From Aurantibacillus circumpalustris (lineage in GTDB: Bacteria > Bacteroidota > Bacteroidia > B-17B0 > Aurantibacillaceae): DNA of 64,000 nt. The translations under genes were made by a program, and so were the position numbers. The DNA is taken from the NCBI RefSeq assembly GCF_029625215.1, contig NZ_CP121197.1:2356001-2420000 (forward strand). Direction: 5' to 3'. Below the pieces are notes generated by a model. That model worked only from the letters and a program-made list of their open reading frames with translations. It did no database searches and was not told the origin of the DNA. Positions 6,608 through 58,962 of the stretch are shown piece after piece. Position 1 is the stretch's first letter, and every line of letters begins with the position of its first letter.

Positions 6608-6736
6608 ATCTGGCACTGATTATTGTTTAGATGGTAATTTTAACAATTTGATTAGGTTAAAAATAATCATAGTTTTGGTGAGGTGAAAACTCTTAACATA
6701 TTTTGGGCGCACCTAACATTGAAGCTTAATTTAAAC

Positions 6737-6744
6737 TAAATTTG
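6737..6744 (+). promoter_or_regulatory. -7 element (TAAATTTG) before the outer-membrane beta-barrel gene
   Basis: It is an exact TAnnTTTG match, with the ATG at 6750 starting 5 nt after the final G. This implies a leaderless or nearly leaderless transcript. Confidence 0.45.
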
Positions 6745-6749
6745 TAGCG

Positions 6750-7466
6750 ATGTCAAGATTTATTTTATACCTGATAATTTTGTTTTTTTCGTGGCATTTT
6801 TCATTTTCTCAGAATTGGAATACTCCCAAAAAAAGCTTGAAGCCGGTTGAAAAAAGACACGCGAAGAAAACCAATCTTGGTTTTGGATTTGGCGTTACGC
6901 GCAGCGTTGTTTATTTAGCACGAAATGTAAAACCTGATAATGACGCAACTGGATTTAATACGTCTCTAGTATACGGCGGTTCTAAATTATTAAGGATTTG
7001 TCTTGAATATACGCGCTATGCAAAAATTGATATAGCGCCTACCTGGTATAACATTAATGCGAATACAATTGAGTTGAATGCGCAAGCCTTAGCACGTTTC
7101 AGGAGTAAGAAAGCTTATTTTTACCCAATGCTTGGTGTTAGTTACAATACGTTTGCCGGAACATATACTGGTATAAACGATTACTTAAATCTTGGAAAGC
7201 TTTATGAAAAAAACGAACGGGTAGTAGCTAGTTGGATAGGGATCAACGTAGGAACGGGGTATGAGTATTATTTTAAACCTGGCAGTATTTTTCTGGATTA
7301 TAAAATGCGAATAGGTTTAACCAAGGGGACTAATCAAATCAATATTCAAGATGTATGCATATCAGCAGGCTTGAGGTTTAATTTAAGGGCGCCATCTTTC
7401 TACAGTATTTTTGCTTACAAAGGAACTCGTAGTCGGTATTTGCTAGATACAAGCGATGAAGATTAA
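6750..7466 (+). CDS. outer-membrane beta-barrel protein, porin-like
   Basis: The 238-residue protein has a signal peptide (FILYLIILFFSWHFSFSQ) and alternating hydrophobic/polar strands with many aromatic residues (for example FGFGVTRSVVYLA, LARFRSKKAYFYPMLGVSYN, VGTGYEYYFKPGSIFLDYK). It closes with LRFNLRAPSFYSIFAY. This is typical of small Bacteroidota beta-barrels with about 8 strands. No ligand can be assigned. It is followed after 6 bp by the antiporter gene, so the two may be co-transcribed, although a functional link is not evident. Confidence 0.65.
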   Translation: MSRFILYLIILFFSWHFSFSQNWNTPKKSLKPVEKRHAKKTNLGFGFGVTRSVVYLARNVKPDNDATGFNTSLVYGGSKLLRICLEYTRYAKIDIAPTWYNINANTIELNAQALARFRSKKAYFYPMLGVSYNTFAGTYTGINDYLNLGKLYEKNERVVASWIGINVGTGYEYYFKPGSIFLDYKMRIGLTKGTNQINIQDVCISAGLRFNLRAPSFYSIFAYKGTRSRYLLDTSDED

Positions 7467-7472
7467 AACCTA

Positions 7473-9629
7473 ATGGAATCCATTCAACATTATTTATTTT
7501 CGCTCAATCAGTTTCTGAATGTGTATTTGCCACTAAAGAATCCGGTTCTGATTTTAGCGCTTACTCTTCTCATAATTCTTTTTTCACCTCTATTATTCAA
7601 ACGCTTTCGAATACCGGGTATTATTGGTCTTATCATTTCAGGCGTTTTAATAGGACCGAATTTTTTTCACATTATCGAGTCCACGAATAGTTTTGAGTTA
7701 TTATCTAAAACGGGTCTTTTGTATATTATGTTCTTGGCAGGACTTGAGATTGATATGCAGGAGTTTAGTAATAACCGAAGTAAGAGTTTAGTGTTTGGTG
7801 CTTTTACATTTTTAATACCAATTTCAATTGGTTATTTGGTTTGTGTGTATGTCTTTCATTTTCCAGTATGGTCGTCCTTATTGCTGGCAAGCATGTTTAG
7901 TACACATACACTTTTGAGTTACCCAATTGTAAGCAATATGGGAATTATTAAAAATCGCGCCGTGCAAGTAACTTTCGGCGGCACTATTATTACAGATTCA
8001 GCAGTTTTAATTCTACTAGGGATAATTACCAACATTGTAACAGGAGAAATCGATAATGGTTTTTGGTTAAAAATTACTATATCCCTTGGCTTACTGCTGT
8101 TCGCAACACTTTATTTATTACCGAGAATAAGTCGCTGGTTTTTTCGAAATATTGAAGCTCAGGCAAGTTCGCATTATATTTATGTGTTAGCAGTTGTTTT
8201 TATTTCCGGATTTTTAAGTGAGTTGGCTGGTGTAGAACCTATTATTGGTGCGTTTTTGGCGGGATTAGGTTTGAATAAAATAATTCCACACACAAGTATC
8301 TTAATGAATCGTGTTGTATTTATAGGTAATACCTTATTCATTCCCTTTTTTCTTATAAGCGCCGGAATGTTGGTTGATCTGAAATTGTTTTTTAAAGGTT
8401 CAGAAGCTTTAATATTCGCAGGGATTTTATCTGCGGTGGGTCTTTTTACAAAATATGCAGCCGCATGGCTTACCTCTAAAGTATACAAATACACAAAACA
8501 CGAACGTAATCTTATATTTGGTTTAAGTGTGTCTCATGCAGCGGCAACCCTTGCTATTATTAAAGTAGGCTTCGATATTAAACTATTTGATCAGAATGTA
8601 GTAAACGGAACAATTATATTAATTCTGGTTTCTTGTCTGGTAAGCTCATTTATAACAGAAAGAGCCGCACGTAATATTGCTATTGAGGAAAAAGAAGTGA
8701 TACTGAAAAACTCAGACAAGGTAGAAAGAATTTTAATACCTGTGAGTAATCCAGACAATATCCAAAGATTAATAGATCTTGCGCTTTTAGTTAAAGATCA
8801 AAAATCGACAGAACCCTTATACCCCTTGTCTATTGTTGAAGACGACGCAGATGCGGACGAAAAATTAAATATTGTTAGAAAGGTAATTGAAGGTGTTGCT
8901 GAACAAATTGCTAGCGGAGATAAAAAAGTTGAGATATTAAAAAAAGTTGACTTAAGTATCGTTGATGGTATAGTTCGAACGTCAAGGGCATATAATATTT
9001 CAGATATATTAATTAGTTACAAAGCTCAACAAGGATCTTCGAATCTATTCGGAAACGTGGCCGCGAGTTTATTAGTAAAGTCAAAACAGTCTATTTTGAT
9101 TTCAAAAATTTTACAGCCTCTAAATACTTTTGAAAGAATCATAGTAATATTATCACCAAATGCCGAACTTGAAAATGGATTTACGCGTTCCGTGTTTAAA
9201 ATCAATGCGCTTATAAAACAGCTAGGAAGCAGCGCTATGATTTATGGAAGTGCAAACACCATTCAAATTTTTTCAGAAATAATTGGGGATAAAAAGAAAG
9301 TGTTTTATAAATACAATAAACTAGAAAACTTTGACGATATAAATGAGTTGAATACTACTAAGGAAGATGATCTGTTTGTATTTTTGAGTGCCCGTAAACA
9401 AACGTTGAGCTACGACTATTTAGTAGATGAAATGCCAAAGAAATTAAATAAGTCTAATGAGTTTACAAGTTTTATAATAATTTACCCTGATATTTCTAAA
9501 ACTTTGCACGAAGGAAGGATAACTGACATAACTTCTACATCCATCGATCAACGCTATGTACAGGTAAAACAGTTTACAGGAAAAATTACTGGTATTTTCA
9601 AAAAAGAAGGTGATGAGGATCTTACCTAG
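7473..9629 (+). CDS. CPA2-family cation:proton antiporter with C-terminal USP-like domain
   Basis: In this 718-residue protein the first about 400 residues are a 12-13 helix Na+/H+ exchanger domain. Motifs include FRIPGIIGLIISGVLIGPN, GLLYIMFLAGLEIDM (the LFLxGLE/D-like helix), TIITDSAVLILLG and EPIIGAFLAGLGLNK. The C-terminal 320 residues are soluble and contain repeated Rossmann-like segments (VERILIPVSNP, RIIVILSPNAE), resembling tandem universal-stress-protein domains rather than the TrkA-N domain of KefB. It likely exchanges Na+ or K+ for H+ at the inner membrane, with the soluble part regulating activity. Ion specificity is not determinable. Confidence 0.88.
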   Translation: MESIQHYLFSLNQFLNVYLPLKNPVLILALTLLIILFSPLLFKRFRIPGIIGLIISGVLIGPNFFHIIESTNSFELLSKTGLLYIMFLAGLEIDMQEFSNNRSKSLVFGAFTFLIPISIGYLVCVYVFHFPVWSSLLLASMFSTHTLLSYPIVSNMGIIKNRAVQVTFGGTIITDSAVLILLGIITNIVTGEIDNGFWLKITISLGLLLFATLYLLPRISRWFFRNIEAQASSHYIYVLAVVFISGFLSELAGVEPIIGAFLAGLGLNKIIPHTSILMNRVVFIGNTLFIPFFLISAGMLVDLKLFFKGSEALIFAGILSAVGLFTKYAAAWLTSKVYKYTKHERNLIFGLSVSHAAATLAIIKVGFDIKLFDQNVVNGTIILILVSCLVSSFITERAARNIAIEEKEVILKNSDKVERILIPVSNPDNIQRLIDLALLVKDQKSTEPLYPLSIVEDDADADEKLNIVRKVIEGVAEQIASGDKKVEILKKVDLSIVDGIVRTSRAYNISDILISYKAQQGSSNLFGNVAASLLVKSKQSILISKILQPLNTFERIIVILSPNAELENGFTRSVFKINALIKQLGSSAMIYGSANTIQIFSEIIGDKKKVFYKYNKLENFDDINELNTTKEDDLFVFLSARKQTLSYDYLVDEMPKKLNKSNEFTSFIIIYPDISKTLHEGRITDITSTSIDQRYVQVKQFTGKITGIFKKEGDEDLT

Positions 9630-46786: not shown

Positions 46787-47317
46787 ATGTTTTTATCCGG
46801 AAACCTAATTTCTTTACGGGCCTTGGAACCTTCTGATGCTGAAATCCTATACCGTTGGGAAAACAACCGTGATATATGGCCTGTGAGCTTCACACAAATT
46901 CCTTTTAGTAAATTTATTCTGGAAGAGTTTACCAATGCTTCACATGCAGATATTTACACGAATAAACAACTTCGCTTAATGGTTAACAAACTGAATTCTA
47001 ATGATACAATTGGAATGATTGACCTTTTTGATTTTGATGCACAGCATCAGCGCAGTGGTCTTGGTATTTATATCTATGAAACATTTCGTAAGTCAGGTTG
47101 TGCGCTTGAGTGTGTAGAATTAATCAAAGACTATTGTTTTAAAACCTTATTACTGAAGCAACTTTTTGTACATATTAATGAATCTAACCCAGCCAGCGTT
47201 GCTTTGTTTGAAAAGGCAGGATTCGAGAAAAGCGGTCTAAAAAAATCTTGGACCAAAACAGGCTTAAATTCTTACGAAGATGTTTGGTTTATGCAATGCA
47301 TTAATAAAGGTGCCTAA
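46787..47317 (+). CDS. GNAT-family N-acetyltransferase
   Basis: The protein has 176 residues from ATG 46787; the frame is also open from a TTG at 46742. Motifs are LISLRALEPSDAEILYRWENNRDIWPVS at the start, GLGIYIYETFRKSGCALECVELI for acetyl-CoA binding, and NESNPASVALFEKAGFEKSG. It resembles SpeG-like spermidine/protein acetyltransferases, but the substrate is unknown. Its 3' end overlaps the next gene, so it is probably in the dapF operon. Confidence 0.85.
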   Translation: MFLSGNLISLRALEPSDAEILYRWENNRDIWPVSFTQIPFSKFILEEFTNASHADIYTNKQLRLMVNKLNSNDTIGMIDLFDFDAQHQRSGLGIYIYETFRKSGCALECVELIKDYCFKTLLLKQLFVHINESNPASVALFEKAGFEKSGLKKSWTKTGLNSYEDVWFMQCINKGA

Positions 47318-49313
47318 ATTTTTTTTCATATTTCGTTCTGTAATTTTTGCAGTTTCTCTTATCTGTTTAATTGCGTGTGATTCTGAAATGACGCCCAATT
47401 CCATAAAAGAAAAAAAAGATACATTAGTTTATTTAAATCATTCTGATACCGCGAAATATATTGGAATGAATACATGCAGACAATGCCACCAATCTATTTA
47501 CAATACTTTTATAGAAACAGGAATGGGAAAATCTTTCGATGTGGCTTCGCGCAAAAAATCTTTCGGTGATTTTATATCCGCTTCTATTTATGATAGGATT
47601 GCTAACCTACAGTATAGGGCATATTGGAACAAAGACAGTTTGTTTATCAAGGAATTTCGCCTTAGTAAAAAGGACACAACACATACAAGAACTGAAAAAG
47701 TAAATTATATTATTGGATCTGGGCAACACACAAACTCGCACATGTATTCCGTAAACGGTTATGTCCATCAAATGCCAATGACCTATTACACGCAAAAAAA
47801 GCACTGGGATCTTCCCCCAGGTTTTGAAAATGGTGTGAATACCCGATTTTCAAGAAAAATTGGGTTAGAGTGTATGTCCTGTCATAATGCCTACCCAGAA
47901 TTTGTAAAGGGTTCTGAAAATAAATTTACACGTTTACCAAACGGAATAGATTGTGAGCGCTGTCACGGTCCAGGTAGCATTCACGTTGCCCAAAGAAGTA
48001 CAGGAAGTAAAGTGGATACATCAAAATACATTGATTATTCAATTGTAAATCCTGCCAAACTTTCTATAGATGCACAATTTGATATTTGCCAGCGTTGTCA
48101 TTTACAAGGAAATGCAGTTTTAAAAGAAGGTAAATCATTTTACGATTTTAAACCTGGACAAAAGCTAAGTGACTTTATATCGGTGTTTTTGCCCAAATAT
48201 AAAAATGCAGACGACGAATTTATTATGGCTTCTCATGCCGATCGTTTAAAACAAAGTGCTTGTTTCATTAAGTCGTATGAGAAAGTGAAAGATAATCGTT
48301 CATTAAAACCTTATAAAGAGGCTTTAACCTGTGTTACTTGTCATAATCCGCATGTGAGCGTTAAACAAACCAATAAAAATGTGTTCAATGATGCCTGCAC
48401 TAATTGTCATAGTAATGCAAGCGAAATTAATAATGTACACAATGAATTAAAAAATAATGAATTAAAAAACTGTGTGAGTTGTCATATGCCTGCGTCTGGT
48501 TCTACAGATATTCCTCATGTTTCGGTGCATGATCATTATATCCGGAAACCAATTACAAAAAAAGAAAAAGATAAAATAAAAACCTTTATAGGATTGTTTT
48601 CAATAAATGAAAAAAATCCAGATAATTTGACCAAGGCCAATGCATACATTGACCAATATTCTAAATTCGAACAAAGCGCATCGTATCTAGATTCGGCCAT
48701 ATTTTTCTTAAAAAGTATTCCAGGTAATAAAAAAACACTGAGTAGTTTTATTCAAATTTATTTTATCCAACAAAAATATACCGAACTAATCGCATTGATA
48801 AAAAATCAGGGTGAACAAGTTTGTGATTCTGTTTTTAGTAAGGACTCCTATGATAATAAAGACGCTTGGGCGGCTTACCGAATAGGAGAAGCTTTTTCTA
48901 ATACAAACGATAATACAAATGCTTTAAGATGGTTTAAAAAAGCGGCTAAATTGGCGCCCTATAATCTTGACTTCAGAAATAAGTTAGGTTCAAGTCTAGC
49001 AGCAGAATCTATGCTGAAAGAGTCTATAGAACAGTTTGAATTTATTTTAAATGAAAATCCAAAATTTGTATCTGCATATTCTAATTTAGGTTACATAAAG
49101 TTGTTACAAGGATTTCCCGCGGAAGCTTTGAGATTATATAAAGTAGGTGAAAAATTAGATCCTGATAATGAAGCACTTTTATTAAATTTAGCTGCTTATT
49201 ATTTGAATACAAAAGAGAGACTTTTGGCAAAGAAGTATTTAGAAGAGGTGATAAGGGTAAATCCAAAAAACAAAAAAGCTCTTGCAGCAATACAGCAATT
49301 GAATAGTTTATGA
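47310..49313 (+). CDS. heptaheme c-type cytochrome lipoprotein with C-terminal TPR domain
   Basis: The preferred start is GTG 47310 (overlapping the GNAT gene by 8 bp); ATG 47280 is possible. The signal ends in a lipobox, CLIAC. Seven CXXCH haem sites are visible: CRQCH, CMSCH, CERCH, CQRCH, CVTCH, CTNCH and CVSCH. The N-terminal 450 residues resemble the cytochrome c554/octahaem superfamily. Residues about 530-667 are TPR-like (AAYRIGEAFSNTNDNTNALRWF, AYSNLGYIKLLQGFPAEALRLY). It is probably an envelope-attached electron carrier or oxidoreductase acting with partners docked by the TPR. No assigned substrate. It overlaps mltG by 4 bp. Confidence 0.85.
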   Translation: MPKFFFIFRSVIFAVSLICLIACDSEMTPNSIKEKKDTLVYLNHSDTAKYIGMNTCRQCHQSIYNTFIETGMGKSFDVASRKKSFGDFISASIYDRIANLQYRAYWNKDSLFIKEFRLSKKDTTHTRTEKVNYIIGSGQHTNSHMYSVNGYVHQMPMTYYTQKKHWDLPPGFENGVNTRFSRKIGLECMSCHNAYPEFVKGSENKFTRLPNGIDCERCHGPGSIHVAQRSTGSKVDTSKYIDYSIVNPAKLSIDAQFDICQRCHLQGNAVLKEGKSFYDFKPGQKLSDFISVFLPKYKNADDEFIMASHADRLKQSACFIKSYEKVKDNRSLKPYKEALTCVTCHNPHVSVKQTNKNVFNDACTNCHSNASEINNVHNELKNNELKNCVSCHMPASGSTDIPHVSVHDHYIRKPITKKEKDKIKTFIGLFSINEKNPDNLTKANAYIDQYSKFEQSASYLDSAIFFLKSIPGNKKTLSSFIQIYFIQQKYTELIALIKNQGEQVCDSVFSKDSYDNKDAWAAYRIGEAFSNTNDNTNALRWFKKAAKLAPYNLDFRNKLGSSLAAESMLKESIEQFEFILNENPKFVSAYSNLGYIKLLQGFPAEALRLYKVGEKLDPDNEALLLNLAAYYLNTKERLLAKKYLEEVIRVNPKNKKALAAIQQLNSL

Positions 49314-52402: not shown

Positions 52403-53500
52403 CTATGGCCTAAAAACCAAGGTGTATTCAGCCAAGGTCTCACTGGAAGTAGGATTAGTAAACTTAAATTTATCGAGCCCCTTTAAAAGCTCTGTTACTT
52501 GTGATTGTTGTTCTTTACTCAAATCAAAACTATTAGTATAAACTACTTTATCCACTTTCCCTTCTGCAGTAATATAAAGCGTGGCATCAAATTTTTGTAA
52601 AAGATTTTTAGCCTTTAAACGGGTGTTAAGTTCCTTGATTAACGCGCTTTCACCACCAGCGTATTGACATGTATTTACATTGCTTAAATCCGCAGATGAA
52701 ATGCTGACGCCTGCTGCCATTGCGTCGTCATCTTTTTTTGTTCTGCTTGTCTTGGCAAGACCTTCTTTTTTTTTGGCTCTTATGCTAGCAACTTCCTCTT
52801 CTTCCTCTAAAGTCTTGTTTTGTTTGTTTTCAGCTAAATCTTCTTTGCTAACATACCTATCATCAGCGGCTACTGGTGCGCTTACCATTGGAACTGCTTT
52901 AACTCTCATTACGTTATTAACTGCCAAAGCAGATTCATTTATTGTTGCAGGAAGTTCCTTATCGGCAGTACTAACAAGTTTTTGATCTGCACTACGGATT
53001 TCTTTATTATTTTCTGCCTCTGGTTCCTTTTGATTATTTTTAAAAGTCATCGCATTTTTTTCCTGCGGTTTTTTAGCAGAGACTGTTTCGTTATGTTTCA
53101 GTTCGTCAGTGAGTACAGACGAAGACGTTTTTTCATTTTGAGTTTCAAGTGTTTTTTGAATTTCATCCTTTGGCAAAGAATTAGATTCAAGAGCAAGATC
53201 TTCTCTTTTTGACAAAGAGCTATTTAGGATAAAATAAATACTAAAACCAACTACAAGAAATAATCCGGCTGCTGCATACCAATAAGCCATGTTAGATTTT
53301 TTTTCAGTAATAAAGATTTCAGAATAGGCCCGGGAATCTAATTTGGTTTTTAAGTCAAGAATTTCCTCCTCGTCAAGATTAGCAAAGCCCTCCATAGCTT
53401 CTTTATCAAAATCATCCATGGGAGCATTGGAATCATTTTTGGATGAGTTCAAAAAGTTCTTAATTGGTTTGTTATCGCTATTATCCTTCTGGTTGTTCAT
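52403..53500 (-). CDS. membrane anti-sigma-like protein with TonB-like C-terminal region
   Basis: The 365-residue protein overlaps the ECF sigma gene by 20 bp. An N-terminal cytoplasmic segment has DDFDKEAMEGFANLDEEEI, a motif common to Bacteroidota anti-sigma or sigma-coupled membrane proteins. One transmembrane helix lies at about 71-92 (AYWYAAAGLFLVVGFSIYFIL). A long low-complexity Lys/Glu/Ala linker leads to a C-terminal domain (YITAEGKVDKVVYTNSFDLS) resembling TonB/energy-transducer C-terminal folds. It is likely a one-pass inner-membrane regulator of the sigma factor. The mechanism is inferred. Confidence 0.65.
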   Translation of the reverse strand: MNNQKDNSDNKPIKNFLNSSKNDSNAPMDDFDKEAMEGFANLDEEEILDLKTKLDSRAYSEIFITEKKSNMAYWYAAAGLFLVVGFSIYFILNSSLSKREDLALESNSLPKDEIQKTLETQNEKTSSSVLTDELKHNETVSAKKPQEKNAMTFKNNQKEPEAENNKEIRSADQKLVSTADKELPATINESALAVNNVMRVKAVPMVSAPVAADDRYVSKEDLAENKQNKTLEEEEEVASIRAKKKEGLAKTSRTKKDDDAMAAGVSISSADLSNVNTCQYAGGESALIKELNTRLKAKNLLQKFDATLYITAEGKVDKVVYTNSFDLSKEQQSQVTELLKGLDKFKFTNPTSSETLAEYTLVFRP

Positions 53501-54068
53501 TTATTAAGGATTCTATTTTTATTTTCAAATTACGTTTACCATTCTGAATGTAACTTTTTACATCGTTATTACTAAATCCAGTTACTTCGCTAATTTCAAT
53601 GTAAGATTTGTTTTGGAAGTAAAATAGCTCAATACACATTTTTTGTTCCTTGTTTAAAAACTGTATTGCACTTTCCATCATTCCAATTTGCCTCTCCTTT
53701 TCTTTTAGATGATCTAAATCGGGCATATCCACAAAAAAGTGAGCATTTTCTTTCAATTCGAGCTCTTTTTTGAGTAAACTCTGCCTTTTTCTCAACTCCA
53801 TAAGGCAGAAATTTTTACTATAGACGTATAACCAGCTCTTAAAGTACTCAATTTTGTGTTTTTTGAGGTCTTGTAGAAGTTTTGTGAATATTTGTATAAC
53901 AGCATCCTCAGCCTCATTTTTGTTCTTTAGGTATTTGAAGCATAAACCAAGCACAAGATGGCTATAGCGCTGATAAAGAATACCAACGTATCTATTATCA
54001 TCCGTCTCAGAAAAAAAAGTAATGAGCTCTTTGTCGGAAGAATTTGTGTATTTGTTGTCAAAAACCAA
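53481..54068 (-). CDS. ECF-family RNA polymerase sigma factor
   Basis: The protein has 195 residues from TTG 54068. The frame is open to 54215 with an ATG at 54155, but that extension overlaps the divergent gene's promoter and lacks similarity. Region 2 is ILYQRYSHLVLGLCFKYLKNKNEAEDAVIQIF; region 4 is FLNKEQKMCIELFYFQNKSYIEISEVTGFSNNDVKSYIQNGKRNL. Length and motifs fit group-4 sigma factors. It is followed by the anti-sigma-like gene. It is divergent from the YfiR-like operon, so the two transcription units share about 94 bp of regulatory DNA. Confidence 0.88.
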   Translation of the reverse strand: MVFDNKYTNSSDKELITFFSETDDNRYVGILYQRYSHLVLGLCFKYLKNKNEAEDAVIQIFTKLLQDLKKHKIEYFKSWLYVYSKNFCLMELRKRQSLLKKELELKENAHFFVDMPDLDHLKEKERQIGMMESAIQFLNKEQKMCIELFYFQNKSYIEISEVTGFSNNDVKSYIQNGKRNLKIKIESLINEQPEG

Positions 54069-54115
54069 AAAATCGGTGGATTTATTGACTAAGTTAATAA
54101 AATAACCAATAATAA

Positions 54116-54145
54116 TTTGGCATTTAAAATCAAATATTATCTTTG
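54116..54145 (+). promoter_or_regulatory. promoter (TTTG-N18-TATCTTTG) of the YfiR-like operon
   Basis: TTTG (54116-54119) and TATCTTTG (54138-54145) are separated by 18 nt, a full consensus match. The start would be about 54149, which puts the first in-frame start candidates of the YfiR-like gene (ATA 54154, ATA 54157, CTG 54163) directly at the transcript's 5' end. Confidence 0.65.
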
Positions 54146-54162
54146 TAAGATTCATAATATAT

Positions 54163-54693
54163 CTGTCAAAATCTTTTAAATATTTACTTGTTGTTTTTTG
54201 TCTGATTTCTTTCAAATTTCAACAACCTTCATCCTTTGATGCAAATGCAAAAATCAGAGCGGTGTTCATCTATAATTACACCCGTTATTTTGAGTGGCCG
54301 GATAATAAAAAGGTCGATAATTTTATTATTTACGTTGTAGGTAAGAACGAAAACCTAATTACGGAATTAAAAAATCTCGCCGGCAAGAAAAAAGTGGGTA
54401 ATCAGGAAATTGAAATTAAGAACTCTTTGAGTTTTGATCCTGGTATTACTTCTCATATTATCTTCTTAACTCCAGAAGCTTCTCGTTCGATAGGTGATGC
54501 CGCCTCGAAAAATAAAAACAAAGGAGCATTAGTAGTTTCTGAGGCTCCCGGTGGTTGCAAGTCTGGAGCCAGTATTAATTTTATCACACTAGATAGCAAA
54601 CTAAAATTTGAATACAATAAAAACGCTGCAGTTAAAGCAGGCTTAAAAACGAACGAAGATTTTAAGGCTTTAGCGGCTGTTAATATTGATTAA
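54163..54693 (+). CDS. YfiR-like periplasmic protein (DUF4154) with non-ATG start
   Basis: The family core begins KIRAVFIYNYTRYFEWP at about residue 30 and continues with VGKNENLITELKNLAGKKKV, and ends KTNEDFKALAA. The nearest standard start, GTG 54262, would delete the signal peptide and half of this motif. The frame is open upstream and encodes SKSFKYLLVVFCLISFKFQ, an excellent signal peptide, but without ATG, GTG or TTG. CTG 54163, or ATA 54154 or 54157, must initiate if the protein is exported. In P. aeruginosa, YfiR represses YfiN in the periplasm. Here the downstream genes include a HAMP-SpoIIE phosphatase. Confidence 0.72.
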   Translation: MSKSFKYLLVVFCLISFKFQQPSSFDANAKIRAVFIYNYTRYFEWPDNKKVDNFIIYVVGKNENLITELKNLAGKKKVGNQEIEIKNSLSFDPGITSHIIFLTPEASRSIGDAASKNKNKGALVVSEAPGGCKSGASINFITLDSKLKFEYNKNAAVKAGLKTNEDFKALAAVNID

Positions 54694-54703
54694 TACTTTA
54701 AAC

Positions 54704-55633
54704 ATGTGCAAATTGCGCCATATAAATAAAAACTTACTTCTAGGCATCTTGTTGCTTTTTAGTGCAGGCTTATTTGCGCAAGAGGAGAAGTTAAACAGAG
54801 CGACGCAATTATTTCGATCAAAAGCCCCGGGCTCAGTTGAATTAGCTGCACGAGCAATTGATAGTGTTGTTTTGCATCCACAAACAAAAGTTGATTTTAT
54901 GGCATGGACTACGAGAGCTTTTATTTATTTTGATCTATATAAATCGAGTGATAAGTTTGTTTTAAACTCTGCTTACAGAGATACAATAATCAATTCCCTT
55001 TTGGTATCAAATAAGTTGCAACCAGATTCAAGTTATTTTGTTCAAAACAACAAGCTTCTATTAAATCTTTCAAAAAATTATTTTAATTTATCTGCAGCAT
55101 TATTACAGGATTCTACAAATTATCAGAGAAGTGAAATTGCTTTTAAGCGTTATAAAATGGTTCATCGTTTAGTAGAGCCAAAAATGGATTTTAGTTCTGA
55201 TGATGTTAAATATTATACCGCAGTTGGTAGTCAGTTTTCTGCAGTGTTTATTAAAGACAACAACGATAGTAAATCACATGAAATTGCAATCGCTGCGTTA
55301 TTAAAGGTACTTGAAATTCAGCCTGATAATACAGCAGCAAATGTTAATATGGGGCTCATGTATTATAATCAAGCGGTTAATATGAGTAAATCTCTCGACT
55401 ATGGTGCAGATTTTTCTCAGATTGACATTGTACAAGAGAATATGGTAAAATTAGCCAAACAAGCTGAGCAATTCATTCATAGGGTTTACGCTAATGATAA
55501 TAAGAATTTAAAGGCTGTGGAAGCGCTTTATTATATTTACCGTATGTTAAATGATAATGCAAAATCAGATGACTTTAAGAAAAAAGGGGAAGAGCTTGGA
55601 ATTAAATTTTCGGAGCAAGCAGTAGATAAATAA
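54704..55633 (+). CDS. secreted TPR-like protein
   Basis: The protein has 309 residues from ATG 54704, 10 bp after the YfiR-like stop. A signal peptide ending LLLFSAGLFAQ is followed by helical repeats (LNRATQLFRSKAPGSVELAARAIDS, AIAALLKVLEIQPDNTAANVNMGLMYYNQAV, ALYYIYRMLNDNAKSDDF). It is probably a periplasmic scaffold in the same signalling operon. No enzyme motif is present. It is likely co-expressed with the phosphatase that starts 5 bp after its stop. Confidence 0.78.
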   Translation: MCKLRHINKNLLLGILLLFSAGLFAQEEKLNRATQLFRSKAPGSVELAARAIDSVVLHPQTKVDFMAWTTRAFIYFDLYKSSDKFVLNSAYRDTIINSLLVSNKLQPDSSYFVQNNKLLLNLSKNYFNLSAALLQDSTNYQRSEIAFKRYKMVHRLVEPKMDFSSDDVKYYTAVGSQFSAVFIKDNNDSKSHEIAIAALLKVLEIQPDNTAANVNMGLMYYNQAVNMSKSLDYGADFSQIDIVQENMVKLAKQAEQFIHRVYANDNKNLKAVEALYYIYRMLNDNAKSDDFKKKGEELGIKFSEQAVDK

Positions 55634-55638
55634 GTAAA

Positions 55639-57420
55639 ATGAAAATGAGATTTACCATAGGAAGAAGGATAGGATTGGGTTTCGCCATTTTTATTTTACT
55701 AACCGTAATTGCCTTCATACTTACCGTTGTTATTCTCAACAAAAGTAAAAGACGAACAGAAACGGTTGTTGGACAAGTAGCGCCAAGTGTAGCTGAATTA
55801 AAGGAGTTAAATCTTTTATTGCAACGTTCTCACACAAATGTTTCAAAATGGTACTATAACAAGAGTTTTAACGACATCGAATTCAGGGATGAGCTAAAAA
55901 ATATCATTAGCAAAGAATACCCTAAGAAGAAAGCCGTACTTATAGAATTTTCTGATGATTGGTCTATTGAAGAAAAAAAGCAACTTGAAATTATTTTTAA
56001 TCGAATTGAGTCTTTATTTAAATTGTATAAAGACGAAATCATAGACCAGTTAAATTCACCAGAGGCTTATGATGATCCAAGTATTTATTTAATGGCCAGG
56101 CTTCCGTACGACGATTCGGAAATCAACATAAAAAAAATATACAAGAACCTGAATTCTCTTATTGAACTAAAGAAAAATTATTCAATCAGTGTAACCGAGG
56201 AAATGTTTTCCTCTATCAATTTCTTAAAAACATTCGTTCAGCTTCTTGGTATCACCTTGGTAATAGGAGGAATACTCATTGCGTTTTTCACCACGCGTTC
56301 AATTACAATCCCAATTCAAGTTCTTAAAAAGATGCTTTTATCAATGGGTTTGGGGATTTTACCTAAAGAGAGGGTTAGTGCCACGAGAGATGAGATTGGC
56401 GAAATGGGAAATGCACTCAATGACCTTATTCGATCTATGCAACACACTACTGATTTTGCAAAAGAAACGGGAGCTGGTAATTTTGATGCTGAATATACAC
56501 CTTTAAGTAAGGATGATTCTTTAGGTCACGCTTTGTTAAAAATGCGTGTAGATCTAGCTGAAAATGAACGATTCTTAGAGCAAAAAGTTATAGAAAGAAC
56601 TGAGGAGGTTGTTCGACAAAAGTCAGAGATCGAAAACAAAAACGAAGAGCTTGAAATCCTTTACAAGCAAGTAACAGACAGTATTCATTACGCTAAGCGT
56701 ATTCAAGATGCTATTCTTCCAACAGAGAATTTTGTGAAGAGATTATTACCGGATGCTTTTATTTTATTTAAGCCAAAAGACATCGTAAGCGGTGACTTTT
56801 ATTGGATTGAAGAAAAAGATAATCTAGTATATTTTGCGGCTGTTGATTGCACAGGACATGGTGTTCCCGGCGCATTTATGAGCTTGGTTGGACATAACAT
56901 TCTTAAAGACATCCTTAAAAATTCTTCAGCAACAATGCCGGGTGAAATACTTGATCGCTTAAGAGAGGGGATTGTAAACGCCCTTAGAGTAGACGATTCT
57001 GGTAAGCAAGCAAAGGATGGTATGGATATGACTTTGTGCGCAATTGATTATAGCACTATGGAGCTTCAGTACGCTGCCGCTTTTAATCCATTATATATTG
57101 TAAGAAACAGTGAACTTATTCTCCACCCTGCAAATAAATTCCCAATAGGTTCCTTCATTGGTGAAAAAGCTAATTTTGATAATCACGTTTTAAAATTGCA
57201 AAAAGGAGATCAAATCTATATCTTTAGTGATGGTTACGCCGACCAGTTTGGTGGACCTAACGGAAAAAAATTTATGGTTGGAAACTTTCGTAAATTATTA
57301 GTTCAAATAAGCGATCTGCCTTCTGCAGAACAAAAAGTGAAGTTGGATTCTACTTTACTTACTTGGCAAGGTGGACAAGAACAGGTAGATGATGTACTTG
57401 TTATTGGAGTAAAAGTCTAA
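55639..57420 (+). CDS. HAMP-containing SpoIIE/PP2C phosphatase
   Basis: The 593-residue protein has TM1 at about 13-35, a periplasmic helical sensor at 36-195, TM2 at about 197-218, HAMP at about 219-275 and a coiled coil at about 300-355. A SpoIIE-type PP2C domain covers residues 370-593, with metal residues in AVDCTGHGVPGAFMS (Asp403), DGMDMTL (Asp463), SDGYADQFGG (Asp531) and VDDVLVIG (Asp584/585). All phosphatase acidic positions are conserved. Such proteins dephosphorylate Ser/Thr, classically anti-anti-sigma factors. Here the operon context suggests that envelope signals from the YfiR-like and TPR proteins gate it (inference). Confidence 0.92.
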   Translation: MKMRFTIGRRIGLGFAIFILLTVIAFILTVVILNKSKRRTETVVGQVAPSVAELKELNLLLQRSHTNVSKWYYNKSFNDIEFRDELKNIISKEYPKKKAVLIEFSDDWSIEEKKQLEIIFNRIESLFKLYKDEIIDQLNSPEAYDDPSIYLMARLPYDDSEINIKKIYKNLNSLIELKKNYSISVTEEMFSSINFLKTFVQLLGITLVIGGILIAFFTTRSITIPIQVLKKMLLSMGLGILPKERVSATRDEIGEMGNALNDLIRSMQHTTDFAKETGAGNFDAEYTPLSKDDSLGHALLKMRVDLAENERFLEQKVIERTEEVVRQKSEIENKNEELEILYKQVTDSIHYAKRIQDAILPTENFVKRLLPDAFILFKPKDIVSGDFYWIEEKDNLVYFAAVDCTGHGVPGAFMSLVGHNILKDILKNSSATMPGEILDRLREGIVNALRVDDSGKQAKDGMDMTLCAIDYSTMELQYAAAFNPLYIVRNSELILHPANKFPIGSFIGEKANFDNHVLKLQKGDQIYIFSDGYADQFGGPNGKKFMVGNFRKLLVQISDLPSAEQKVKLDSTLLTWQGGQEQVDDVLVIGVKV

Positions 57421-57429
57421 ATATATACC

Positions 57430-58962
57430 ATGCGGTTTTTATGCACATTTGTGGTTCTTTGTTTAACCTTATCACAGAGGTTATTACCGCAAATGCAGGT
57501 TGAAAGTATAAAAATTACTACAACTCAGGTCGGCGTTTCTGCCATTAGCGTAAACAGTCTTATTGCAAAAACATACAAACTTAACTACCCGCTTTATGAC
57601 TACAAGATTGATACAACTACCAAACAATTGTTTTTTTCTGGACGACAAAAGGGCGAGTCAGGTAGTAACAATTACTTAAGTCGTGGTTTTTTCGCGGCTT
57701 TAAGTACACTTAATGATTCTGTTAAATGGATTAACGAATCAAGTCTATACAATATCAGAGTCTCAGGAAATAATCTTCTATTATCAAATGAAGTAAAGTC
57801 CGTAAGGTATAACAAGTCGCATGGTTATGACGAAATTCGTTATGATTCTAAGATATTTTACACTATACCTAAGTATAACAGAGGCTTTGTCTATGATAAA
57901 ACACAAGAAAATGTGCTTAATTGTGTGAATTTGGCAGTAGGTAATACTGTTTGGAGCTGTAAAATTCCAAAAGATGAAAATTGGGTGGACACTCAATTTT
58001 TGAACGATACAACATTATTAATTGCTGCGGGCGGCCTTCACGCAGTGAGTATAAAATCGGGCCTAGTATGGTCTTTTCCTTTAACAACTGCAATAAAAAC
58101 AAATCGCTCTTTTATTTATTCTAACGCAAAATTCAAGACCATACAACAAATAAGTTCGGTGATTAAAACATCAAGTGATGATAACATTGTTAGACAAATA
58201 GCTTCTAATATATTAAAAAGTGAAAATCTAATTTATTTTGCGGCGAAAGAAAAATTAATCGCCGTAACACCTGCTGGTAAAATGGAATGGGAGGTTGATT
58301 TAAAGAATTATCCAACCTCTAAAATGTTAATTACAAAAACAGACTCTTCCTTAATCCTTGTAAATTTTGGTCTTGCAACGCATAGCAACAACTTTGTTAC
58401 ATGGGGCAAACCATTTATTATAACACTAGATCCTCAAACCGGAAAAATATTAAATCAGTACGACTTAAGTCATATTGAGAATCTTGCGGATTTTGTTAGA
58501 ACTGACAAAGCTTTTATATTCGCAACTAAAAATGATGTTCAAGCTGCAGTGCCTGGAAACAGTGAGATTCGAACCGTTTTATCTCTGGGCGAACATAAAT
58601 ATGGAGAATTTGTTGAATTTATAAATGGTGACGAGTATTATATATTAAGGGAGGGTTATTTTGTACCATTGAATTTTATTAACGATCAGGTAAATTATTT
58701 TAGAGCAGATAACAATAAAATATACGGTATTGAAGGAGAGGATCTTAAATACGAATACCATTATACAGAGTTGTTTAAGTTGGATAAAAAATACAAAGGC
58801 AAAACCATTTTATACAATGATCAAAAGACCCTCATTACGAATAATTTGTTTGAATTACTTTTTACCATTAATCTTCCTGATAAAAACGTAATCTTAAATA
58901 ACAAAATGTTCTTTATGAGCGATTATAGAATTTATATGCTCAATCTTGACGACTTAAAGTAA
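57430..58962 (+). CDS. secreted PQQ/WD-like beta-propeller protein
   Basis: The 510-residue protein has an N-terminal signal peptide (RFLCTFVVLCLTLSQRLLPQ). Repeating beta-strand blocks follow, such as TVWSCKIPKDENWVDTQFLNDTTLLIAAGGLHAVSIKSGLVWSF and KEKLIAVTPAGKMEWEVDL, the pattern of PQQ-like propellers (AxDxxTGxxxW variants). No catalytic cofactor residues are evident. It lies 9 bp after the phosphatase gene and is probably the last gene of the operon. It may be an extracytoplasmic ligand-binding or scaffolding component. Confidence 0.72.
   Translation: MRFLCTFVVLCLTLSQRLLPQMQVESIKITTTQVGVSAISVNSLIAKTYKLNYPLYDYKIDTTTKQLFFSGRQKGESGSNNYLSRGFFAALSTLNDSVKWINESSLYNIRVSGNNLLLSNEVKSVRYNKSHGYDEIRYDSKIFYTIPKYNRGFVYDKTQENVLNCVNLAVGNTVWSCKIPKDENWVDTQFLNDTTLLIAAGGLHAVSIKSGLVWSFPLTTAIKTNRSFIYSNAKFKTIQQISSVIKTSSDDNIVRQIASNILKSENLIYFAAKEKLIAVTPAGKMEWEVDLKNYPTSKMLITKTDSSLILVNFGLATHSNNFVTWGKPFIITLDPQTGKILNQYDLSHIENLADFVRTDKAFIFATKNDVQAAVPGNSEIRTVLSLGEHKYGEFVEFINGDEYYILREGYFVPLNFINDQVNYFRADNNKIYGIEGEDLKYEYHYTELFKLDKKYKGKTILYNDQKTLITNNLFELLFTINLPDKNVILNNKMFFMSDYRIYMLNLDDLK

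Follow-up and report, generated by a model that had tools for sequence, protein, structure and literature searches.

A conserved yfiR–TPR–phosphatase operon in the Bacteroidota and its likeness to the Yfi and Sia systems of Pseudomonas aeruginosa

What does a YfiR-like protein do when its gene stands in front of a protein phosphatase? The question is raised by a locus of Aurantibacillus circumpalustris, whose genome is a single contig of 4.6 Mb; the window that we analysed is a stretch of 64,000 nucleotides of it (NZ_CP121197.1, positions 2,356,001 to 2,420,000). The original prediction saw in six genes of this window one envelope-signalling system, in which YfiR is joined to a HAMP-PP2C/SpoIIE phosphatase instead of a HAMP-GGDEF effector and to a secreted tetratricopeptide repeat (TPR) protein. 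We found that the yfiR, TPR and phosphatase genes form an operon that is, with near certainty, a conserved unit, and we give a probability of roughly 0.6 to the reading that in this three-gene envelope operon a YfiR/TPR input sets the phosphatase, whose target would be a SiaC-type protein. Judged from open reading frames (ORFs) and Pfam matches, all six genes are present where, and in the orientations in which, they had been placed, and with the promoter box of yfiR they are as follows.

52403 to 53500, minus strand: anti-sigma-like single-pass membrane protein of 365 amino acids, without a Pfam match over cut-off and so called from position and family
53481 to 54068, minus strand: extracytoplasmic function (ECF) sigma factor (Sigma70_r2 8.3e-10, Sigma70_r4_2 5e-9), with an inferred TTG start
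54138 to 54145, plus strand: TAnnTTTG, the −7 box of the Bacteroidota primary sigma factor, 5' of yfiR (consensus as given in the available part of PMC9723704)
54163 to 54693, plus strand: yfiR, encoding a periplasmic YfiR/HmsC-like protein with a signal peptide (PF13689), from an apparent CTG start
54704 to 55633, plus strand: secreted TPR protein of 309 amino acids, with a signal peptide read from the sequence and matches to the TPR profile
55639 to 57420, plus strand: HAMP-PP2C/SpoIIE phosphatase (SpoIIE over cut-off, HAMP below it), with SiaA-PP2C as best match
57430 to 58962, plus strand: secreted beta-propeller protein, BamB-like in its model and, from its distribution, a genus-specific companion outside the core

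The four plus-strand genes from yfiR to the propeller gene are separated by spacers of 10, 5 and 9 bp, and the sigma and membrane-protein genes, whose ends overlap by 20 bp, diverge from yfiR. The Pfam cut-offs were passed by the sigma factor, YfiR and the SpoIIE domain, while HAMP and TPR fell short of them; signal peptides and transmembrane (TM) segments were read from the sequence and the model.

The conservation of the three-gene core was followed in two sets of loci. The first consisted of 80 stretches of relatives, chosen through the TPR and propeller proteins and marked with profiles made from the window's proteins, of which four propeller stretches (L120-L123) and two TPR-SpoIIE fusions (L115, L116) were left out. 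In the resulting 74 loci yfiR lay directly before the TPR gene without exception, across many families, and the phosphatase, whole or cut by the end of the contig, followed in 73 (the exception being L092). Since this set had been selected through the TPR protein, the survey was redone with a set picked by YfiR similarity alone, the best 80 of 205 relatives, which are mostly metagenome-assembled genomes titled Bacteroidota (L154 is titled 'bacterium' and L213 'Candidatus Saccharibacteria'). Here the TPR gene came directly after yfiR in 80 of 80 loci, and because these had been picked by YfiR similarity only, the adjacency is above chance. The phosphatase followed within the distance filter in 74 of the 80; five of the six misses had 0-139 bp of contig remaining past the TPR gene, and in the sixth (L178) the phosphatase ORF overlaps the TPR gene, so that the phosphatase is present in 75 of the 75 loci whose contig continues. 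The two sets have contigs in common and are therefore not independent samples.

As for its spread, we searched 150 relatives from 66 genera and 198 genomes drawn across the phylum. Matches to YfiR were obtained in 114 and to the TPR protein in 108 of the 150 relatives. In the phylum sample, where the best candidates of each genome were scored (up to 17 for YfiR and up to 11 for TPR), YfiR occurred in 20 of 198 genomes and a full-length TPR orthologue in two, own genome counted; the TPR matches in the other 56 of 58 genomes were partial and lay inside longer ORFs (366-518 amino acids). On these counts a phylum-wide system was rejected: the operon is common in some lineages of the class and is not general.

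The assignment of the two exported proteins rests on profile matches. The window's YfiR matched PF13689 at 3.2e-24 (86.1 bits, cut-off 24.9), and the YfiR profile retrieved the P. aeruginosa YfiR structures at 8e-5. For the TPR protein Pfam gave a weak match to TPR_11 (4.5e-4, below cut-off), and the profile of its family retrieved consensus TPR chains. The local TPR profile includes PP2C columns from the two TPR-SpoIIE fusions and thus gives a weak TPR score on PP2C proteins, for which reason TPR genes were recognised by position together with the main score.

The phosphatase itself resembles SiaA of P. aeruginosa. Its SpoIIE domain matched PF07228 at 1.4e-19 (71.2 bits against a cut-off of 25) and its HAMP domain at 1.5e-3, below the Pfam cut-off; no CHASE8 or GGDEF domain was found in it with Pfam, CHASE8 being looked for at E 0.05. 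The claim that all metal residues are present was borne out, as D386, D403, G406, D531, G532, D584 and D585 do not vary among 62 aligned phosphatases, in which identity to the window's own enzyme is 47-84%; when the metal-site motifs were taken as patterns over 71 phosphatases, three of the five occurred in 71 and two in 69, with neighbouring letters varying. An AlphaFold model (predicted local distance difference test, pLDDT, 82.7; predicted template modelling score, pTM, 0.45) predicts a long helix crossing the membrane, a helical bundle in the periplasm, a second TM segment, HAMP, a poorly predicted coiled coil and PP2C; the periplasmic domain comprises residues of about 33 to 195. The best solved relative is SiaA-PP2C (6K4E, an identity confirmed in the available part of PMC7647112), which was matched by profile at 1.3e-56 against 2.3e-4 for the next PP2C, by Foldseek at 8.3e-17, and by VIA with a Z of 31.6 (root-mean-square deviation 2.4, 242 aligned) against 23.4 for Rv1364c. 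The VIA matches barely cover the periplasmic part, where one chemoreceptor model aligns to residues 2-269. SiaA, as described in the available part of PMC7647112, has two TM segments, HAMP and PP2C, and acts on SiaC, opposing the kinase SiaB; the protein studied here likewise has two TM segments, a HAMP domain, if below the Pfam cut-off, and a PP2C domain nearest to that of SiaA. The genome as a whole encodes about 30 SpoIIE-type phosphatases (L124-L153) in its 4.6 Mb.

How could such proteins work together? Once exported to the periplasm, YfiR and the TPR protein would determine which state the helical bundle of the phosphatase takes, most probably by binding to it directly, just as YfiR binds YfiN. 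This state would be relayed through the second TM segment and HAMP to the cytoplasmic PP2C domain, which, being of the SiaA kind, would most likely dephosphorylate a SiaC-type phosphoprotein and so oppose a SiaB-type kinase in a partner-switching arrangement. By analogy with YfiN, the control would be inhibitory. That YfiR acts on the phosphatase we consider likely, presuming a contact made by YfiR and the TPR protein, and for a SiaC-type substrate we take the chances to be about even. If so, the operon would supply one of the many SpoIIE-type phosphatases of this genome with a defined input from the periplasm and with a target in the cytoplasm that can be tested.

Candidates for such a target are at hand. 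SiaC homologues number four and SiaB (DUF6272) homologues five in the own genome, some of them lying 0.5-2.5 kb from a SpoIIE gene, and neither family had a match in 14 control genomes. In two loci, L090 (6063-7013) and L224 (6867-7824), a siaB-siaC pair lies directly upstream of yfiR-TPR-phosphatase on the same strand, ending 62 bp and 143 bp, respectively, before the open yfiR frame, and in L100 siaB/siaC lie about 3.5 kb upstream of the operon. The closest own-genome counterpart of the siaB-siaC of L090 and L224 is the pair at L280, with siaB at 925-1473 and siaC at 1486-1866; the SiaC proteins of the two loci match the SiaC copy there at 5e-68 and 2e-68, compared with 7e-30 and 4e-30 for the copy at L281. 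In the alignment the L280 copy retains the threonine of the NTSS motif; by counting, this residue is taken to be the phosphorylated threonine of SiaC, T68 in the available part of PMC7647112.

Several observations weigh against this picture. The loci with siaB/siaC near the operon are only these three in the two sets of 80 searched, and no such gene was found beside the window's own operon. L090 and L224 belong to one lineage, their phosphatases being 82% identical, so the linkage may have arisen only once; in L094, which is also of that lineage, a sigma gene takes the place of siaB-siaC. Among the other SpoIIE loci of the own genome, 28 of 29 match this PP2C domain at 37-56% identity, so that the kinship to SiaA is unlikely to be specific to this phosphatase and is probably common to an expanded family. 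The periplasmic part of the phosphatase is helical and without a CHASE8 match, so YfiR would bind a fold other than the one it meets in YfiN. Finally, the 80 loci are those most similar in YfiR out of 205, and YfiR away from the operon has other partners.

These other partners point to a wider role of YfiR. Two more YfiR domains occur in the own genome, each in a fusion with TM-SpoIIE (the TM segment between YfiR and SpoIIE read by eye), and YfiR-SpoIIE fusions occur in other genomes as well (L268 and L269 by Pfam, L270-L274 by local profiles). Since such fusions exist, the pairing of YfiR with the phosphatase is reinforced. YfiR is also fused to histidine kinases (L264, L266, by Pfam) and, in a gene beside a YfiR-SpoIIE fusion gene, to an adenylate/guanylate cyclase domain (L269:3362-5194); the long YfiR ORFs had been chosen by length, and among L264-L269 the Pfam scan covered those of L264, L266, L268 and L269. 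Twenty stretches with YfiR outside the operon were collected, and neighbours were scanned in 13 of them (all but L235, L240, L243, L248, L250, L251 and L253). CHASE8-HAMP kinases adjoin YfiR in six of the 13 (L234, L236, L237, L238, L239, L244), as CHASE8 kinases also do in L275, L277, L278 and L279, and TonB receptors adjoin it in three (L241, L246, L252). In L241 and L252 the TonB receptor-yfiR pair is divergent from a second SpoIIE family (by Pfam), perhaps also in L242 and L243; L242 has a SpoIIE gene nearby, L247 a HAMP-SpoIIE gene past a TrkA gene, and in L245 and L249 the neighbours are a periplasmic binding protein and an ATP-grasp enzyme. The kinase loci are like the operon in that YfiR adjoins a HAMP effector, but they have a kinase output and a CHASE8 sensor and are without a TPR gene of the operon's family. 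A separate observation concerns L244, where a PD40-propeller/OmpA protein (6614-9265) is encoded directly 5' of yfiR and the CHASE8 kinase, with a SpoIIE gene upstream; by analogy this protein is possibly a YfiB-like partner.

These neighbours and fusions fit the idea of Malone et al. (2012), set out in the available part of PMC3375315, that the YfiR-YfiN core is modular, with GGDEF-EAL, Hpt, histidine kinase and methyl-accepting chemotaxis protein outputs; PP2C is not among the outputs in that part of the text, and SpoIIE does not occur in it. Among open-licence PMC papers we found none that links YfiR to PP2C or, for Bacteroidetes, to SpoIIE or a histidine kinase, nor one that links SpoIIE to partner-switching in Bacteroidetes. 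With the operon the modular concept would be extended to protein phosphatases and to directly fused sensors. Compared with YfiBNR (TpbB) of P. aeruginosa, the operon is alike in pairing an exported YfiR homologue with a two-TM HAMP effector, but the effector there is PAS/CHASE8-HAMP-GGDEF, whereas here it has a PP2C output, a helical sensor and a weak HAMP, and in the third place there is a secreted TPR protein where YfiBNR has the OmpA-like lipoprotein YfiB. The likeness to SiaABCD lies in the two-TM HAMP-PP2C protein and in SiaB and SiaC being encoded in the genome and, in one lineage, beside the operon; here, however, the phosphatase is preceded by yfiR and the TPR gene, and siaB/siaC of the window's genome are located elsewhere. 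The operon thus appears to couple the input half of one Pseudomonas system to the output half of a second one. The still broader idea, that a Yfi-type input with TPR replacing YfiB feeds a Sia-type phosphatase/kinase/SiaC output and that YfiR is a general periplasmic plug-in for PP2C, kinase and cyclase outputs, in trans and fused, we offer tentatively, at somewhat less than an even chance.

What YfiR senses is not likely to be the redox state, one of the two inputs that had been proposed. P. aeruginosa YfiR has two cysteine pairs (available part of PMC4655355), whereas 74 of 81 mature YfiR sequences here have no cysteine or one, without conserved pairs; a redox-sensing YfiR was rejected on these counts and is graded unlikely.

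With the same input, the phosphatase may instead feed RsbV/RsbW-type switching, with a STAS antagonist and a HATPase_c_2 kinase, which we regard as doubtful. The whole genome does encode a single small STAS protein standing alone, at L254, whose serine occupies what we take to be the place expected from the motif, and one strong stand-alone RsbW-like kinase (1.2e-26), at L256. The two lie 171 kb and 88 kb from SpoIIE genes, however, and whereas an RsbU/V/W switch has a STAS and an RsbW-type kinase gene adjacent, the loci searched yielded no STAS gene, and neither a STAS nor an RsbW-type gene adjoins the operon loci. RsbW matches came only from two YfiR loci outside the operon (L235, twice, and L253) and were weak, in kinase-length ORFs, and the PP2C domain is nearer to SiaA than to the RsbU/SpoIIE structures.

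According to the original prediction, YfiR and the TPR protein would read the envelope state and the phosphatase would act on the divergent ECF sigma/anti-sigma pathway, a link which we consider unlikely. For it speaks that a divergent sigma gene lies beside the operon in 46, and an anti-sigma family gene in 45, of the 80 YfiR-chosen loci (three of the 34 sigma-less loci lie near a contig end), that the sigma factor is a true ECF factor and that its neighbour is plausibly its anti-sigma. Among 18 yfiR-TPR loci outside the own family, though, the sigma gene adjoins three (L088, L093 and L094, in two families) and is absent beside 15. Moreover, at least ten genomes (G042, G045, G050, G053, G059, G063, G066, G069, G082 and G104, from tables compared by eye) have a strong sigma match (E 3e-57 or better) with the operon on another contig or not found; as these are draft genomes, the absences are soft. 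Nine of those ten genomes had their sigma locus retrieved, and in each of the nine the gene after the separate sigma again encodes a member of the anti-sigma family (the weakest match being 29 bits, L296). The sigma/anti-sigma pair is a module of its own, often a neighbour of the operon and separable from it. The window's membrane protein is neither a kinase nor a STAS protein but a membrane protein of another type, and no kinase or antagonist gene links phosphatase and sigma at the locus. The evidence points to a SiaC-type target rather than to the sigma pathway.

Of the proposed ECF sigma/anti-sigma pair in divergent orientation 94 bp from yfiR, the sigma factor stands by its Pfam matches, and the gap is exactly 94 bp given a sigma start at TTG 54068 and a yfiR start at CTG 54163; the identity of the anti-sigma is supported indirectly. 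In Pfam the window protein beside the sigma had no match over cut-off, and it reads DDFDKEAMEGF in the finger region, where the zinc ligands (HxxxCxxC) are absent. Distant proteins beside orthologous sigmas in other families do have HxxxCxxC (by eye), and of eight anti-sigma relatives scanned, L296, L298 and L302 gave zf-HC2 below cut-off and L291, L296, L297 and L302 TonB_C over it. Since relatives have finger and TonB_C, the name anti-sigma-like gains its indirect support, and the window protein is most likely an anti-sigma whose zinc site has been lost. The pair is thus comparable to ECF sigma factors with finger/TonB_C anti-sigmas in its divergent sigma with regions 2 and 4 and in having orthologous pairs elsewhere; it differs in that the window anti-sigma is without zinc ligands and the pair is not bound to the operon.

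The yfiR promoter also bears on the sigma link, for the primary-sigma box is present with or without a sigma gene nearby. TAnnTTTG was found 5' of yfiR in 46 of 47 loci with sigma (5.5 expected) and 28 of 32 without it (4.2 expected), the expectation being taken from mononucleotide shuffles and 79 of 81 loci being testable. Besides this box, no common motif was seen by eye in the yfiR-sigma intergenic sequences, no formal search for an ECF motif having been made, and on this basis an ECF-driven operon was rejected.

It is very improbable that YfiR and the TPR protein serve only in envelope maintenance and share a transcript with the phosphatase without controlling it directly, for although the genus-specific propeller at the operon end resembles BamB and TPR proteins are common in the periplasm, the three-gene order is fixed over many families and YfiR is found fused to SpoIIE, kinase or cyclase outputs in a single polypeptide.

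That the six genes are co-conserved as one set did not survive the neighbourhood survey, as the propeller is confined to one genus and the sigma gene is separable; the six-gene system was rejected, with the propeller and the sigma pair being accessory. The propeller occurs in 29 of the 150 genomes, all of the own genus (one of 66), and in four of the 29 (L120-L123) on a contig other than that of the operon. It had no Pfam match; its AlphaFold model (pLDDT 88.3) is nearly all beta and like the BamB propeller, with TM-scores of only about 0.3-0.45.

The start codons deserve a remark. An apparent CTG start of yfiR is found at one aligned place in 26 loci (the window, at 54163-54165, and L154-L174, L176, L177, L180 and L205), 24-28 codons before the mature protein, and in these loci it is the sole ATG, GTG, TTG or CTG within 33 codons outside the hydrophobic stretch. 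The codon at this place is always CTG, though leucine has six codons, and the conservation suggests that it serves as the start; in a few loci further in-frame upstream starts precede the promoter box (by eye). At the same place the codon is TTG in sister lineages and ATG or GTG in distant ones; none of the four codons occurs there in L175 or L201, and the case of L199 is ambiguous. No open-licence PMC paper joining CUG start codon and Bacteroidetes was found. The sigma ORF is open to 54215, and the TTG at 54066-54068 was taken as its start from a comparison of N-termini; within the own genus the gene appears to begin with TTG (or GTG), and some sister lineages appear to have ATG (by eye).

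Elsewhere in the window, a gene at 47280-49313 encodes a protein in which several CxxCH haem-like motifs are combined with TPR-like repeats at the C-terminus; the genes that follow it are putatively mltG-, tryptophan dioxygenase- and gldA-like. The order of this gene and those following it is kept in part of the genus.

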